From Kitasatospora sp. MBT63 (GTDB lineage: Bacteria > Actinomycetota > Actinomycetes > Streptomycetales > Streptomycetaceae), in contig NZ_JAIZ01000779.1 in the NCBI RefSeq assembly GCF_000710465.2, forward strand, positions 762-42,007: a stretch of DNA of 41,246 bases. Reading direction: 5' to 3'. Shown piece by piece: positions 1,572 through 38,870 of the stretch (the first letter of the stretch is position 1; the number at the start of each line of letters is the position of its first letter). The notes beneath the pieces were generated by a model. The model was not told the DNA's origin and did no database searches. It saw only the letters and a list, made by a program, of their open reading frames with translations. A program made the position numbers and the translations under genes.

Positions 1572-3371
1572 GTGACCGAGACGCTCAGCTGGGACGGCAG
1601 CGCGCCGCCCTCCGACCGCACCGAGACCAGCCGGCCGGTCGACACCGGACTCGCCGTACCTGGCCTGAAGGTCAGGGCCACCGCCGTCGGCGCCACCGGG
1701 GTGACCGTACGCACCACCGCCCGCGGCCCGGGCGTGGTGCTGATCGAGGCCACCGCCACCGGCCCCGACGACCGGCTGCCCACCCGGCTGCGGGTGGAGT
1801 GGCGGCTCCCGTGCACCGGGGCGAGCGCCTACTGGACCCCCGACACCGGCCACCGCTGGCTGCCGCCGTCCTGGAACCGGCCGCGCGAGGCCTCACTGCC
1901 CAAGGGCGCGCCCGTCGGCAGCCTGGTCGGCGCCGGCGACCGGGCGCTGTGCACCTTCGCCGTCGGCGAACCGGTGCTGCCGGTCTCGATCGGCGAGGGT
2001 GCGGTCGAGGAGACCGGCGAGTTCAGCTTCTGGACCGAGCACCAGGGCACCGAGCTGCGGCTGCTGCTCGACCTGAGCGGCCGCCACTTCGCCGACACCG
2101 TCCGCGCCGCAGCCGCCTGGTGGGCCGCCGAACTGCCCACCGCCCCGGTCCCCGACGCCGCCTTCGAACCCGTCTTCTGCACCTGGTACACCCTGCACCT
2201 GGCGATGACCGCGGCCGACGTCGAACGGCTGGCGGCGCTCGCCGCACCGCTCGGCTTCCGCTCGCTGATCGTCGACGACGGCTGGCAGACCGACGAGGAC
2301 AGCCGCTCGTACGCCACCACCGGCGACTGGCGGCCCGCCCCGGCCGGTTTCCCCGACTTCGCCGGCCACGTCCGCCGGGTCCGCGCCCTCGGGCTCAACT
2401 ACCTGCTCTGGCACGCGCTGCCGTTCGCCGGCGAACGCAGCGCCGCCGCCGGTACGCTGGCCGCCCACTCGCTGGCCCACCTGGCGAAACTGCAGACCCA
2501 CGTGCTCGACCCGCGCAGCGCCACCGTCCGGGCGCACCAGGTGGAACGGCTGGCCGCCGCCGTGGAGCAGCACGGGGTGGACGGCCTCAAGATCGACTTC
2601 ATCGACACCTTCGCCCGGGCCGAGGCCGCCACCGGCTCACCCGAGGCCGACTGCGACACCGTCGCCGAAGGCGTGCACCGCCTGCTCACCGACCTGGACA
2701 CCCGGCTGCGCGCCACCCGGCCCGAGGTCCTGGTCGAGCACCGGCAGGACTACACCGGACCCGGCCTGTGGCCGTTCGCCACCATGGTCCGGGCCACCGA
2801 CTGCCCGCACAACGCCACCGAGAACCGCACCCGCACCGCCGACCTGCGGCTCACGGCCGGCCCGCTCGCCGTCCACGCCGACCCGCTCACCTGGCACCCG
2901 GACGAGAGCCCCGAGCAGATCGCCGTCCTGTTCCAGTCGGTGCTCTTCGCCACCCCGCAGGTCTCGGTCGACCTCGCCGCCCAGCGGCCGGAGCAGCTGG
3001 CCGTGGTGCGGTTCTGGCTCTCCGTCATGCGCGAGCACACCGGCGTACTGCAGCGCGGCGAACTGCGCCCGCACCGGCCCGAGCTCGGCTACCCGCTGAT
3101 CGAGGCGCGGCACGACGGCACCCTGGCGTTCGGCCGGTACGCACCGCTGCCCGCCGTCGTGACGGGGGAGTGGCACACCCTGCTGCTGGCCAACGCCGAC
3201 CCGGACCCGCAGGTGCGGCTGGTCCTCGACGGCCCGCCGGGGCCGCTGACGCTGCAGGTCAGGGACTGCACGGGGGCCGTACTGAGCGAGGAGGCGCGGA
3301 CGCCGGACGGACCGGAGCTGGTGGTCCGGGTGCCGACCGGCGGTCTGCTGACGGTCCGTCGCGGCCGGTAG
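1572..3371 (+). CDS. GH36-type alpha-galactosidase (melibiase)
   Basis: This 599-residue glycoside hydrolase probably removes terminal alpha-galactose from oligosaccharides. The central TIM barrel shows LIVDDGWQ (about residues 233-240), the active-site strand DGLKIDFID with probable nucleophile Asp342, and RATDCP with probable acid/base Asp410. The order and spacing follow clan GH-D. An N-terminal beta-sandwich (about 1-190) and a short C-terminal beta domain (about 510-599) flank the barrel. There is no signal peptide, so cytoplasmic action on imported sugars is likely. The GTG start is chosen for the GGAAGG ribosome site about 14 bases upstream. At 599 residues it is shorter than the roughly 700-residue GH36 enzymes. 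No transporter or sugar regulator adjoins it. A GH27/GH31-like specificity cannot be excluded. Confidence 0.82.
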   Translation: MTETLSWDGSAPPSDRTETSRPVDTGLAVPGLKVRATAVGATGVTVRTTARGPGVVLIEATATGPDDRLPTRLRVEWRLPCTGASAYWTPDTGHRWLPPSWNRPREASLPKGAPVGSLVGAGDRALCTFAVGEPVLPVSIGEGAVEETGEFSFWTEHQGTELRLLLDLSGRHFADTVRAAAAWWAAELPTAPVPDAAFEPVFCTWYTLHLAMTAADVERLAALAAPLGFRSLIVDDGWQTDEDSRSYATTGDWRPAPAGFPDFAGHVRRVRALGLNYLLWHALPFAGERSAAAGTLAAHSLAHLAKLQTHVLDPRSATVRAHQVERLAAAVEQHGVDGLKIDFIDTFARAEAATGSPEADCDTVAEGVHRLLTDLDTRLRATRPEVLVEHRQDYTGPGLWPFATMVRATDCPHNATENRTRTADLRLTAGPLAVHADPLTWHPDESPEQIAVLFQSVLFATPQVSVDLAAQRPEQLAVVRFWLSVMREHTGVLQRGELRPHRPELGYPLIEARHDGTLAFGRYAPLPAVVTGEWHTLLLANADPDPQVRLVLDGPPGPLTLQVRDCTGAVLSEEARTPDGPELVVRVPTGGLLTVRRGR

Positions 3372-35664: not shown

Positions 35665-35848
35665 CGCGTCCTCCCCGGGTCCGCGTCTTTTTCGGTGCGG
35701 CCCGGCGTCGCGCCGGTCTTGACGCGGACATTGTCGGCGCAGGTGGGAGGGGGTGCGGGCGTCGCGGGCCGCGGTGGGGCCGGGATTCGGGCCAACTGGT
35801 CGGTGGTGCGCGGGGGTTGCGGCCCGGGGAGCGGAGGCGCTTCAATCA

Positions 35849-35867
35849 GTTAGGAAAGTTTCCTAAC
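35849..35867. promoter_or_regulatory. CsnR-type operator upstream of the chitosanase
   Basis: GTTAGGAAAGTTTCCTAAC is a perfect 9-bp palindrome around a central G, in an otherwise GC-rich region. It closely resembles the AGGAAA-TTTCCT operators of ROK-family CsnR repressors at streptomycete chitosanase genes, as I recall them. It lies 48 bases before the start, about where transcription should begin. Confidence 0.75.
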
Positions 35868-35871
35868 GTGA

Positions 35872-35897
35872 ACTGCGGGTACCCCCATGCCCGCAGT
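35872..35897 (+). ncRNA. Leader hairpin of the chitosanase mRNA
   Basis: ACTGCGGG (35872-35879) pairs perfectly with CCCGCAGT (35890-35897), just downstream of the operator and before the ribosome site. It may stabilise the mRNA. Confidence 0.5.
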
Positions 35898-35915
35898 CGG
35901 CAGACGGAGCGTCAC

Positions 35916-36746
35916 ATGGCACTGCAGCACCGCACCGCCCGTACCGCCCTGGCGATCGTCCTCGCCGCCGTTCCCCTGACCGTCGCCACCGCCGGCGTCG
36001 GACACGCCGAGACCTCGGTGGTCTCGGTGGCGGCCGTGGGCCTGGACGACGCGCACAAGAAGGACATCGCCATGCAACTGGTGTCCAGCGCGGAGAACTC
36101 CTCGCTCGACTGGAAGGCCCAGTACAAGTACATCGAGGACATCGGCGACGGCCGCGGCTACACGGCCGGCATCATCGGCTTCTGCTCCGGCACCGGCGAC
36201 ATGCTCGACCTGGTCGAGCACTACACCGACCTCAAGCCGGGCAACGTCCTCGCCAAGTACCTGCCTGCCCTGCGGAAGGTCAACGGCAGCGAGTCGCACT
36301 CCGGCCTCGGCTCCGCGTTCGAGAAGGACTGGGCGAACGCCGCCAAGGACACCGTGTTCCAGAAGGCGCAGAACGACGAGCGCGACCGGGTCTACTTCAA
36401 CCCGGCCGTCAGCCAGGCCAAGTCCGACGGGCTGCGCGCGCTCGGCCAGTTCATCTACTACGACGCCATCGTCATGCACGGGCCCGGCACCGACTCCGAC
36501 AGCTTCGGCGGCATCCGCAAGGCCGCGATGAAGAAGGCCAAGACCCCCGCCCAGGGCGGCGACGAGACCGCCTACCTCAAGGCGTTCCTCGACGCCCGCA
36601 AGGTGGTCATGAAGAAGGAGGAGGCGCACGCGGACACCAGCCGGGTCGACACCGAGCAGCTGGTATTCCTCAACGCCAAGAACTTCGACCTCAACCCGCC
36701 GCTGAAGTGGAAGGTCTACGGCGACCCGTACAGCATCAACAGCTGA
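35916..36746 (+). CDS. csnA: Secreted GH46 chitosanase
   Basis: This 276-residue endo-chitosanase cleaves chitosan with inversion. ATG 35916 leads into a Sec signal peptide (TALAIVLAAVPLTVATAG) with likely cleavage after GHA at residue 31. The mature enzyme tracks the well-known Streptomyces sp. N174 chitosanase almost residue by residue: LVSSAENSSLDWKAQYKYIE carries the proton donor Glu60, and EDIGDGRGYTAGIIGFCSGTG carries Asp78 (18 residues later, as Glu22/Asp40 in N174). DTSRVDTEQLVFL and NPPLKWKVYGDPYSINS close the fold. A CsnR-type palindrome upstream implies induction by chitosan oligosaccharides; the repressor gene is not in the window. The gene name is by family analogy. Confidence 0.95.
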   Translation: MALQHRTARTALAIVLAAVPLTVATAGVGHAETSVVSVAAVGLDDAHKKDIAMQLVSSAENSSLDWKAQYKYIEDIGDGRGYTAGIIGFCSGTGDMLDLVEHYTDLKPGNVLAKYLPALRKVNGSESHSGLGSAFEKDWANAAKDTVFQKAQNDERDRVYFNPAVSQAKSDGLRALGQFIYYDAIVMHGPGTDSDSFGGIRKAAMKKAKTPAQGGDETAYLKAFLDARKVVMKKEEAHADTSRVDTEQLVFLNAKNFDLNPPLKWKVYGDPYSINS

Positions 36747-36850: not shown

Positions 36851-37582
36851 GTGGCGAAACTCAACCAGATCATCGCGGTCGAAAAGGGCGTCAAGTCCAA
36901 GTCCTTCCAGGAGCTCACCCAGGCCCATCACGGCCTGCAGAAGCCGGCCCTGCTGGCCGGCATCTCCCGCACCTACCAGCCCAAGGACGAGGAGGGCGAG
37001 CAGCTGCCGCCCGAGTCGACCCGGGTCCAGGTGAAGGCCGAGGACATCCTGCGCGCCACCGCCACCTCGCTCACCCGGCTGTTCGACGTGACCGCCACCA
37101 AGGACTGGGCCAACCAGGAGGCCCGCGCCGACGTGGTGGTGGACGGCCGGCCGCTGCTCAAGGACGTGCCGGTGACCTACCTGCTCTTCCTGGAGAAGCA
37201 GCTCACCGACCTCTACACCTTCGTCCGCAAGCTGCCGGTGCTGGACGCCTCGGAGGCCTGGAGCCCCGACCCGTCCACCGACGCCTGGAAGACCGACGCG
37301 GTCCGCACCATCCGCACCAAGAAGGTGCCGCGCAACCACGTCAAGGCCGAGGCGACCGAGAAGCACCCCGCCCAGGTCGAGGTGTACTACGAGGACATCC
37401 CGGTCGGGTACTGGACCACCGTCAAGTTCTCCGGCGCGCTCCCGGCCCGGCGGGTCAACGAGCTGGTCGAGCGGGTCGAGAAGCTGCAGCAGGCCGTGCA
37501 GTTCGCCCGCGAGGAGGCCAACGGCGCCGAGATCACCGACCGGCGGACCGGCGACGCCGTCTTCGGCTACCTGTTCGGGTAG
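36851..37582 (+). CDS. Uncharacterised conserved protein upstream of permuted tRNA-like RNAs
   Basis: This 243-residue protein starts at GTG 36851, seven bases after a TAGCTT -10, probably leaderless. It begins VAKLNQIIAVEKGVKSKSFQ and is highly charged, without cysteines, signal peptide or membrane segment. The central block TRLFDVTATKDWANQEARAD and VPVTYLLFLEKQLTDLYTFV looks like the conserved core, and a C-terminal helix (RVNELVERVEKLQQAVQFAREEAN) is coiled-coil-prone. I believe it matches a family catalogued as DUF7873, found in actinobacteria and some phages, but cannot verify the number. It shares no motif with RtcB, Ro60/TROVE or known nucleases. The stop is directly followed by the tRNA-like RNA region on the same strand with no terminator between, so it is probably functionally tied to those RNAs. 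Confidence 0.75.
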   Translation: MAKLNQIIAVEKGVKSKSFQELTQAHHGLQKPALLAGISRTYQPKDEEGEQLPPESTRVQVKAEDILRATATSLTRLFDVTATKDWANQEARADVVVDGRPLLKDVPVTYLLFLEKQLTDLYTFVRKLPVLDASEAWSPDPSTDAWKTDAVRTIRTKKVPRNHVKAEATEKHPAQVEVYYEDIPVGYWTTVKFSGALPARRVNELVERVEKLQQAVQFAREEANGAEITDRRTGDAVFGYLFG

Positions 37583-37593
37583 CCTTCTGATCG

Positions 37594-37632
37594 CCCCTCG
37601 TGCGAGCGAAGGGGTGCGCTGGCAACAGCGCA
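37594..37632 (+). ncRNA. Two stacked hairpins at the 5' side of the RNA region
   Basis: A CCCCT/AGGGG stem (37594-37598 with 37610-37614) abuts a perfect 7-bp stem TGCGCTG/CAGCGCA (37615-37621 with 37626-37632) capped by a GCAA (GNRA) tetraloop. They begin 11 bases after the upstream stop codon and could mark a processing or protein-binding site. Confidence 0.6.
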
Positions 37633-37660
37633 AGCTGACACTGATGTTGAAGCTGACGAC

Positions 37661-37741
37661 GGGGTAACGGTGGAGGTTCGAGTCCTCCCCCCGGCACCAC
37701 GTGCCGGGGTGGCCCAAAGGGTAGAGGCAGCCCCCTGAAAT
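37661..37741 (+). tRNA. Circularly permuted tRNA-Phe(GAA)-like RNA
   Basis: In genomic order the elements are: anticodon-stem 3' strand GGGGT (37661-37665), a 6-nt variable loop, T-arm GGAGG-TTCGAGT-CCTCC (37672-37688), acceptor 3' strand CCCCGGC (37689-37695), A, and encoded CCA (37697-37699). After CGT come acceptor 5' strand GCCGGGG (37703-37709), TG, a D-arm (37712-37728, 3-bp stem, loop with GGG-TA), A, anticodon-stem 5' strand GCCCC (37730-37734) and loop CTGAAAT (37735-37741). The acceptor pairs over 7/7 bp and the anticodon stem over 5/5 (one G-T). Re-ordering gives a 75-nt tRNA plus CCA with T33 and anticodon GAA. A normal-order gene is impossible here. A Y-RNA-like tRNA mimic is the alternative. 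Confidence 0.65.
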
Positions 37742-37806
37742 TCAGACTCTCGCTCCAGTCTCAGTATTCGCCGCCGCGCGCCGGATCGACCGAGTGCGGA
37801 CCAAAG

Positions 37807-37881
37807 GGTCGGATGCGGGTTCAAGTCCCGCCTGTGCCTCTCGTGGCACGGTAGTTCAAAGGCAGAACACGACACTGTCAA
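37807..37881 (+). tRNA. Circularly permuted tRNA-Asp(GTC)-like RNA
   Basis: The order is GGTCG (37807-37811, anticodon-stem 3' side, 4 of 5 pairs), a 3-nt variable loop, T-arm GCGGG-TTCAAGT-CCCGC (37815-37831) and acceptor 3' strand CTGTGCC (37832-37838). After the loop TCTCGT come acceptor 5' strand GGCACGG (37845-37851, 7/7 pairs with one G-T), TA, a perfect 4-bp D-arm GTTC-AAAGGCA-GAAC (37854-37868), A, CGACA and loop CTGTCAA (37875-37881) with anticodon GTC. No CCA is encoded. The flanks pair as TGCGGA (37795-37800) with TCCGCA (37887-37892), extended by GAG/CTC, making a terminal helix that brings the ends of the permuted precursor together. The odd discriminator T, short variable loop and A-G mismatch leave room for a non-coding tRNA mimic. 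Confidence 0.6.
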
Positions 37882-37933
37882 AATGATCCGCAGCTCTTAA
37901 ACGTGCCGGCGCGAGCAAGTGGGTGGCACCTCA

Positions 37934-37967
37934 GGGGCCCGGGAGCCGGATACCGCTCTCGGGTCCC
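37934..37967 (+). terminator. Terminator after the tRNA-like region
   Basis: A 13-bp stem (37934-37946 with 37955-37967, two G-T pairs in the plus-strand RNA) closes an 8-nt loop. On the minus strand those pairs become mismatches, so it suits the plus-strand transcript better. Confidence 0.6.
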
Positions 37968-37992: not shown

Positions 37993-38793
37993 TCACCGGC
38001 CGCCGCGCCTGCCCAGCCAGTCGGCCCAGGTGGTCGTCCCGCGCCGCCCGTACGGCGCGGTCATCGTGTACGCCGCCCGCATCAGCGGTGCCGGCGCGTA
38101 CAGGCCGATCACCTTCCGGGGCCGCCCGCGCGCCCACTGCCACTGGTCCACCAGGGTCCCCAGGGTCAGCACCTCGGGCCCGGCGAAGTCCTCGCGCCGC
38201 CCGCCCGGCCCGTCGGCCAGGCACTCGGCCACGTACCCGGCGAAGTCCGCCGGGTCCACCGGCTGCACCGGCACCCGGGTCGGCAGCGGCAGCACCGGCA
38301 GCCGGGCCGCCTTCCCGAGCATCCGGTCCAGCAGCCAGTGGAACTGCGTCGCCCGCAGGATCGAGAACGGCACCCCCGACTCCCGGACCAGTTCCTCGGC
38401 GGTGAGCTTCAACCGCAGGTACGGCCCGCGCGGCCGGTCCACCCCCACGATCGAGATGTACGCGAAGTGGTCCACCCCCGAGCGGGCCGCCGCCTCCAGC
38501 AGCAGCCGGGTGCCGTCCACGTCCACCTCGAGCGGACTGCGCCACAGGTCCGCCGGGCGCAGGTAGCCGCGCCGCGCGGCCGGCGAGCAGGTCGCCGCGT
38601 GCACCACGGCGGACACCCCGGCGACCGCCTGGGCCACCCCCGCGCCGGTGGCCAGGTCCCCGCGCACCCAGTCGACCTCGCCCCCGCTCCCCGGCGACCT
38701 CGCGAGCACCCGCACCCGGTACGCCGGGCGCAGCCGCTCCACCAGCTCCCGCCCCAGATGCCCCGTCCCGCCCGTGACCAGCACGATCGCCAT
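37993..38793 (-). CDS. NmrA/SDR-a type NAD(P)-binding reductase
   Basis: This 266-residue atypical short-chain dehydrogenase starts at ATG 38793, with GGAGGTGG eight bases upstream. The Rossmann motif is VLVTGGTGHLGRELVERL at residues 4-22. AVVHAATCSP, VDVDGTRLLLEAAARSGVDHFAYISIVGVD and PYLRLKLTAEELVRESGVPFSILR follow the NmrA/extended SDR pattern, with the catalytic Tyr of YxxxK replaced by YLRLK. Such proteins bind NAD(P)H as reductases, epimerases or redox sensors. The short C-terminal region argues against a sugar-nucleotide epimerase. It is convergent with the tRNA-like region. The substrate is unknown. Confidence 0.85.
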   Translation of the reverse strand: MAIVLVTGGTGHLGRELVERLRPAYRVRVLARSPGSGGEVDWVRGDLATGAGVAQAVAGVSAVVHAATCSPAARRGYLRPADLWRSPLEVDVDGTRLLLEAAARSGVDHFAYISIVGVDRPRGPYLRLKLTAEELVRESGVPFSILRATQFHWLLDRMLGKAARLPVLPLPTRVPVQPVDPADFAGYVAECLADGPGGRREDFAGPEVLTLGTLVDQWQWARGRPRKVIGLYAPAPLMRAAYTMTAPYGRRGTTTWADWLGRRGGR

Positions 38794-38870
38794 CGCCGCC
38801 ACCTCCAGCCGGTGATCCAGGCCCACCTACGAGCCTCCCACCGCCCACCGGCCGGGTCGACCCGGGGACA

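Follow-up and report, generated by a model that had tools for sequence, protein, structure and literature searches.

The described RNA closest to the one reported here is YrlA, which accompanies the Ro60/Rsr protein and mimics the elbow and the acceptor of a transfer RNA (tRNA) with a T-arm, a loop-closed acceptor and a D-arm, in that order, its ends lying on the side of the anticodon stem. According to one account, YrlA carries one such arm within 90-150 nucleotides (nt), the arm is a substrate of TruB and DusA, and it can bind PNPase (PMC8394870); a study in Salmonella presents the arm as a possible competitive inhibitor of an anticodon nuclease (PMC7790460). The same arrangement of the gene, broken at the anticodon-loop position, is described for type II permuted tRNA genes in algae and archaea (37/38 junction), and a tRNA-like part that derives from a permuted gene and is left unligated for the permuted two-piece transfer-messenger RNA (tmRNA) (PMC3978253), while GOLLD is portrayed as a large RNA that occurs with tRNA clusters and is presumably spread by phages (PMC9569102). 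Here we describe a predicted RNA of about 375 nt at positions 37594-37966 (forward strand) of a 41,246-nt stretch of Kitasatospora sp. MBT63 DNA, hereafter the window. It lies downstream of a gene of the uncharacterised DUF7873 family (36851-37582, forward strand, 243 amino acids) and contains two permuted tRNA-like units.

These units are two YrlA-type arms of one predicted structured RNA, which we think likely to be a tRNA mimic bound by DUF7873 and not a tRNA precursor. The best reading of our data is a new class of YrlA-like tRNA-mimic RNA that would be transcribed and would form a ribonucleoprotein (RNP) with DUF7873. Covariance-model alignment gives it the arm order and ends of YrlA; it differs in having two arms in about 375 nt, in its flanking stems, and in the partner indicated by gene linkage, which is Ro60 there and DUF7873 here. 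Unlike the permuted tRNA genes of algae and archaea, it has no bulge-helix-bulge (BHB) motif and no conserved anticodon, is larger, and has a partner gene. Two tRNA-like parts, with neither an ARAGORN call nor an Rfam match at the gathering score, set it apart from permuted tmRNA, and Rfam gave no GOLLD match in the window, nor any at gathering in 12 relatives.

Two permuted arms within one predicted RNA

The permuted-unit detector, run over both strands of the window, returned exactly two matches, unit 1 at 37661-37741 and unit 2 at 37807-37881 on the forward strand; ARAGORN found no ordinary tRNA in the window. An earlier note on this DNA had proposed that in both units the T-arm and acceptor 3' strand precede the acceptor 5' strand and D-arm, with a seven-base-pair acceptor forming across the permutation point, and the detector agrees, pairing 7/7 in each. 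Unit 1 is bounded by a stem (37661-37665 with 37730-37734) and comprises a T-arm (37672-37688, loop TTCGAGT), the acceptor 3' strand (37689-37695), the linker ACCACGT (37696-37702), in which CCA is encoded, the acceptor 5' strand (37703-37709) and a D-arm containing GG (37710-37728), followed by the internal-loop strand CTGAAAT (37735-37741); its restored anticodon stem pairs 5/5 (GCCCC/GGGGT, one G-U). Unit 2 has a stem (37807-37811 with 37870-37874), a T-arm (37815-37831, loop TTCAAGT), an acceptor (37832-37838 with 37845-37851) around the linker TCTCGT (37839-37844), and a D-arm (37852-37868) whose D-stem pairs 4/4, but of the 5 pairs of its restored anticodon stem only 4 form, and its variable region has 3 nt. 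The T-loops, the D-arm GG, the 5/5 stem and the CCA of unit 1 are thus as the earlier note gave them. The anticodon loops that it named are not closed in the predicted structure, where these regions are open internal loops enclosed by further conserved stems.

Related loci were fetched by way of the protein: the best 80 of 516 genome loci, which with the window make 81 bacterial loci, and 67 viral or phage loci (60 from IMG/VR, the other 7 from annotated phage records). When the detector was relaxed and its threshold set to 16, at least one unit turned up within about 560 nt after DUF7873 at all 81 bacterial loci and at 55 of the 67 viral or phage loci, and two units occur at 52 and 28 of them, respectively, while no match arose in 444 shuffles or 145 upstream stretches; at the laxer threshold of 15.5, three of the 444 shuffles pass. 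All 177 distinct detected units have U8 and a GG D-loop, two features for which the detector itself awards points, and their T-loops are mostly TTCGA or TTCAA.

In alignments of 25 and 81 streptomycete sequences, conserved sequence extends over 37594-37966, with a hairpin at its 5' end and another at its 3' end, and strongly conserved blocks separate the two arms. Pairing played no part in aligning the 81 sequences; all seven pairs of the unit 2 acceptor are standard in 81/81, with two-sided changes at five of the seven. Two further alignments of bacterial and viral sequences, hand-picked for spread, consist of 46 of 73 (A3, unit 2 domain; L088 excluded for its range) and 36 of 56 (A4, unit 1) distinct unit references. 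Two-sided changes affect 20 of 22 pairs in A3 and 14 of 15 in A4, and the A4 covariation score is 0.748, against 0.183 in shuffles and 0.09-0.18 in slid controls. Because the rows of A3 and A4 were chosen by a detector that demands pairing, the unselected alignment and the held-out covariance-model matches reported below weigh more. Compensatory changes, which the earlier note had suggested looking for in the acceptor and anticodon stems, are present in the acceptor, T, D and core stems; with a permuted order that is genuine and an acceptor pairing borne out by covariation, its structural claim holds. By the pattern of sequence conservation, units 1 and 2 are two arms of one longer predicted RNA rather than two genes. 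At L016, L096 and L113, judged by eye, unit 1 is missing or a plain stem takes its place, and the rest of the RNA is retained.

Association of the RNA with the DUF7873 gene

The window protein matches DUF7873 (PF25283) at 397.5 bits against a Pfam cut-off of 27 (E 3.3e-119); its open frame begins at 36707, and the alignable protein at 36851 in a 55-sequence alignment. To survey the RNA without reference to the protein, we searched 150 genomes of the window's family with R1, a covariance model of the unit 2 domain only, and counted as strong only full-length matches of at least 58 bits. Window unit 2, itself among the sequences used to build R1, scores 130 bits; loci outside the build set score, for example, 117.5 (L091), 103.2 (L099), 97.8 (L144), 91.2 (L145), 64.3 (L149) and 57.9 bits (L146). 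All 92 strong matches sit 143-292 nt downstream of DUF7873 on the same strand, and 92 of the 94 DUF7873 copies carry one. The gene is present in 92 of the 150 genomes, in 91 of which the RNA lies alongside, and the 58 genomes without it yielded no strong full-length match. The linkage between DUF7873 and the RNA is therefore near one-to-one in this family. The two copies lacking a strong match are a divergent one (G130) and a fragment (G017), and in G017 gene and RNA have decayed together, the fragment adjoining a degraded RNA copy (L156, 902-1037). Left uncounted were three partial matches (G121, 59.9 bits; G128, 59.3; G047, 58.9), all beside TROVE (Ro60) by coordinates and two from genomes that lack DUF7873, and, among the matches listed, weaker ones of 49-54 bits, some full-length and some without DUF7873. 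Because the model derives from DUF7873 loci, it may have overlooked strongly diverged RNAs that lack the gene.

The pair is not tied to one chromosomal site. The PheT/GH46/3HCDH neighbourhood of the window recurs at only 6 of 80 genome loci, within the flanks compared, which indicates that gene and RNA occupy different chromosomal places. A sample drawn from the whole phylum had DUF7873 in 7 of 396 genomes, every one of them in the window's own family; the gene also occurs in one Nonomuraea record and in 73 phage records, mostly from phages of Vibrio, Gordonia, Rhizobium, Klebsiella and Serratia. Among the seven phage records in which we examined the RNA, it is clear in five (L144, L145, L146, L149 and L150), partial in a Rhizobium phage (L148) and doubtful in a Vibrio phage (L147). 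The gene-RNA pair is found in phages of actinobacteria and cyanobacteria, partly inside tRNA arrays: at least three tRNA genes occur in the 5 kb to either side of 20 of 54 viral or phage loci and of 0 of 70 bacterial loci. A control genome, Deinobacterium chartae, encodes both DUF7873 and TROVE.

Binding of the RNA by DUF7873 is suggested by this linkage and by the co-decay. A confident AlphaFold2 model of the protein (mean predicted local distance difference test score 91.8, predicted template-modelling score 0.68) is built from long helices and long strands. PHROGs, PADLOC and NCBIfam assign the protein to no family, the best hit in a PDB profile search had an E-value of only 0.07, and Foldseek found no PDB match at E 0.001. 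A BFVD entry returned by Foldseek, A0A514TZW7, was set aside as a relative (E 9.9e-5 but a template-modelling score of 0.21, and nameless), as were VIA-align rows too weak to name a fold. A search of an open literature library found no paper naming DUF7873 and none describing this RNA; an earlier mention in Chen 2014 or in the YrlA structure paper is possible.

Layout of the RNA and its conserved core

The predicted RNA opens with a 5' hairpin (37594-37614), paired in most of the 81 aligned streptomycete sequences and showing two-sided changes, and a second hairpin from the same alignment (37615-37632). Domain 1 (37634-37765) is a stem of repeated CUGA/UCAG boxes that bears unit 1, with 37634-37638 pairing with 37761-37765 and 37654-37656 with 37742-37744; these coordinates are the printed alignment positions plus 3, on account of dropped columns. 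Domain 2 (37770-37927), supported by the 81-sequence and A3 alignments, is a longer helical domain whose stems (37770-37775 with 37922-37927, 37779-37784 with 37906-37911, and 37792-37800 with 37888-37896) carry unit 2. The RNA closes with a 3' hairpin (37935-37966) that has GGATAC at its apex (37948-37953; family consensus GGMUAY).

Short motifs recur in this framework. Between the arms lies TCGCTCCA (37750-37757), which in relaxed form occurs at 69 of 78 bacterial and 25 of 57 viral or phage loci, against 5/78 and 5/57 in shuffles and 7/77 and 6/55 in upstream stretches. The relaxed form of CTTAAACG (37896-37903) was found at 30/78 and 34/57 loci (shuffles 0/78 and 2/57), and the GGMUAY 3' hairpin at 75/78 and 29/57, with none in the 78 and 57 shuffles or the 77 and 55 upstream stretches. 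ATC[AG]A was dropped as a core motif, being uninformative (26/78 and 40/57 shuffles contain it).

The gene that follows (37993-38826) lies on the other strand, so that the RNA region is not its leader. Directly upstream of the gene-RNA cassette is a gene of glycosyl hydrolase family 46, chitosanase-type (35817-36746).

Proposed role and alternative explanations

In the model that we propose, DUF7873 would bind the conserved core, made up of the CUGA/UCAG stem, UCGCUCCA, CUUAAACG and the GGMUAY hairpin, to form an RNP that presents two elbow-and-acceptor arms to tRNA-handling proteins such as pseudouridine and dihydrouridine synthases or nucleases; that such enzymes would recognise the arms is argued by analogy with the YrlA arm. 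The RNP may tether these enzymes or act as their decoy, and in phages that carry the pair in tRNA arrays it could shield or adjust the tRNA pool while infection proceeds. A decoy for an anticodon nuclease, by the same analogy, would have a clear use beside phage tRNA arrays, and why phages with such arrays would carry tRNA mimics becomes a testable question. The pair is widespread and unannotated, present in most sampled genomes of the family and in phages of distant hosts; permuted tRNA mimicry is here not tied to Ro60 by gene linkage, and the uncharacterised DUF7873 family gains a candidate RNA partner.

Of the alternatives, one keeps the arms and adds processing: RNase P and 3' processing would open the acceptor loops, leaving a base-paired three-piece RNA with two CCA ends that could be charged or bound by EF-Tu. 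Removal of the acceptor loop during maturation is known for permuted tmRNA. The linker across the acceptor stem is 4 to 49 nt long and begins N73-C74 in 156 of the 177 distinct units; its position -3 is C in all 105 bacterial units and a pyrimidine in 69 of the 72 viral or phage ones. NCCA is present in 27 of 79 unit 1 and 19 of 98 unit 2 sequences overall, divided into 16/46 and 0/59 for bacteria and 11/33 and 19/39 for viruses and phages, and U stands at -1 in 32 of 39 viral unit 2, 15 of 33 viral unit 1 and 38 of 105 bacterial sequences. The start of the linker, NCCA, and the U at -1 of viral unit 2 all point towards the three-piece RNA, but the absence of NCCA from bacterial unit 2 and the low frequencies of U at -1 in bacteria and in viral unit 1 argue against it, and we hold it to be unlikely. 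Were it true, phages and Streptomyces would share a double-headed split tRNA device with a protein of its own, DUF7873.

A Ro60-type Y RNA acting in trans, which the genome's Ro60 would bind with DUF7873 as an accessory, also strikes us as improbable. The arm order is that of YrlA, and the best Rfam match, to the unit 2 arm, is YrlA (RF02553; 34.9 bits, E 8.8e-6); unit 1 reaches 20.5 bits (E 0.13), and neither meets the gathering score of 69. At gathering, Rfam places no family over this RNA in the window or 12 relatives, the tRNA matches of the relatives lying outside it. The test is a weak one, given that the genome's own Ro60-linked YrlA-like RNAs fall short as well (41.1 and 35.0 bits). 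A search of the genome for Ro60, suggested in the earlier note, did find a TROVE protein, encoded on another contig, so that the window RNA is not adjacent to a Ro60/Rsr gene. DUF7873 and TROVE are both present in 62 of the 150 family genomes, slightly more than expected by chance (Fisher p 0.017, uncorrected for relatedness), and the cassette has Ro60 a few kb away in G037 and, by coordinates, in the viral records G540 and G542. However, 30 of the 92 DUF7873 genomes have no TROVE match, and TROVE is found in 3 of the 22 cassette-bearing viral and phage records and missing from the other 19, among them all seven annotated phages (IMG/VR records may be fragments).

The genome's Ro60, moreover, already has two YrlA-like RNAs, which share the flanks GTGCGCAGG (5') and ATGCCCCTGCCG (3'). 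The window RNA matches the first at 8 of 9 positions, which would suit a Ro60 ligand, but the second at only 8 of 12, and neither occurs exactly among the 81 bacterial DUF7873-linked RNAs. The two Ro60-linked units detected have short acceptor loops, TTCG and TTCGG, whereas the linkers here mostly start N73-C74 and end Y-R-N. Taken together, the separate Ro60-linked RNAs and the DUF7873 linkage speak for a Y-RNA-like mimic whose partner, by linkage, is another protein. An unprocessed YrlA-like mimic was the second option in the earlier note; this comes near the mark, except that gene linkage points to DUF7873 and not to Ro60 as the partner.

Several arrangements around Ro60 may be recorded here. 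In the genome of the window (L143), TROVE occupies 892-2796 on the minus strand and is preceded by the tandem YrlA-like RNAs at 2778-2895 and 2995-3104; in the one found by the detector, the acceptor arm is closed by TTCG. In G037 (L151, 1478-1560 and 4951-6020), Ro60 and a unit of its own precede DUF7873 with its pair of units by about 1.7 kb, and G540 (93923-94159; L103, 7178-7260) has the cassette together with Ro60 and, by coordinates, another permuted unit just 5' of the Ro60 frame.

It is quite unlikely, in our view, that the sequence is a cis-acting element of the 3' untranslated region (UTR) that controls the DUF7873 mRNA, its arms being sites for RNase or tRNA enzymes. Such an element would agree with the position of every strong R1 match, 3' of DUF7873 on the same strand, and with the strong hairpin in which the RNA terminates. 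To our knowledge, though, the 3' UTR controls so far described are shorter and simpler, which we count against this explanation, and in phage Keelan (L146) the domain follows the gene by about 635 nt with an annotated tRNA-Thr gene in between, a spacing that suggests a separate RNA.

The earlier note favoured permuted tRNA genes, whose units a nuclease and a ligase would turn into linear tRNA-Phe(GAA) and tRNA-Asp(GTC); we now regard this as very improbable. When the window units are joined on paper, ARAGORN accepts them as exactly these tRNAs, which explains how they came to be read so; unit 1 encodes CCA, and the genome has one RtcB ligase gene, on another contig, which we do not use as evidence of splicing. 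Among the units that pass the stricter detector, to which the joins are limited, 10 of 14 bacterial unit 1 joins read GAA, but the other four do not, and these together with the unit 2 joins of relatives include Pyl(CTA), Stop(TTA) and SeC(TCA), the complements of stop codons. Of 32 bacterial unit 2 joins, 31 were called, as Glu, Gln, His, Phe, Leu, Pyl, Lys, Ser, Val, Asp or with unreadable loops, and the 24 viral or phage joins include Stop and SeC. The anticodon is not conserved among relatives. The commonest loop strand of unit 1, GAUCAAUC (32 of 81 aligned streptomycete rows), would give CAA with U at 37, and 65 of the 81 rows have U at this position, where a tRNA has a purine. The junction of unit 1 falls in a 4x7 internal loop (CGAC/CTGAAAT) between conserved stems, with no BHB by eye in the predicted structure. 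The same genome has ordinary genes for both tRNAs, Phe(GAA) and Asp(GTC), neighbouring an ordinary Glu(TTC) gene among 67 tRNA-family matches; RtcB is absent from all 22 cassette-bearing viral and phage records, and some members lack unit 1 altogether. A permuted tRNA-like order in bacteria thus need not imply permuted tRNA genes. One sub-cut-off Rfam tRNA match (20.9 bits, E 0.13) that combines the 5' half of unit 1 with the 3' half of unit 2 around a 65-nt insert was rejected because its acceptor pairs badly, each unit's own pairing 7/7.

That the junction of two neighbouring tRNA genes, as tandem remnants, imitates a permuted unit is scarcely credible at this locus: such imitation is real, tandem tRNA-Asn genes elsewhere scoring 49-53 bits with R1, but here it is refuted by the covariation of the acceptor strands with each other across the linker, and the outer stems and motifs are conserved and held-out matches behind DUF7873 score 91-118 bits. 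The weak R1 matches that we read (L152, L153 and L154) are closely spaced tandem tRNA-Asn genes of this kind, a source of false positives for scans that look for permuted tRNAs.
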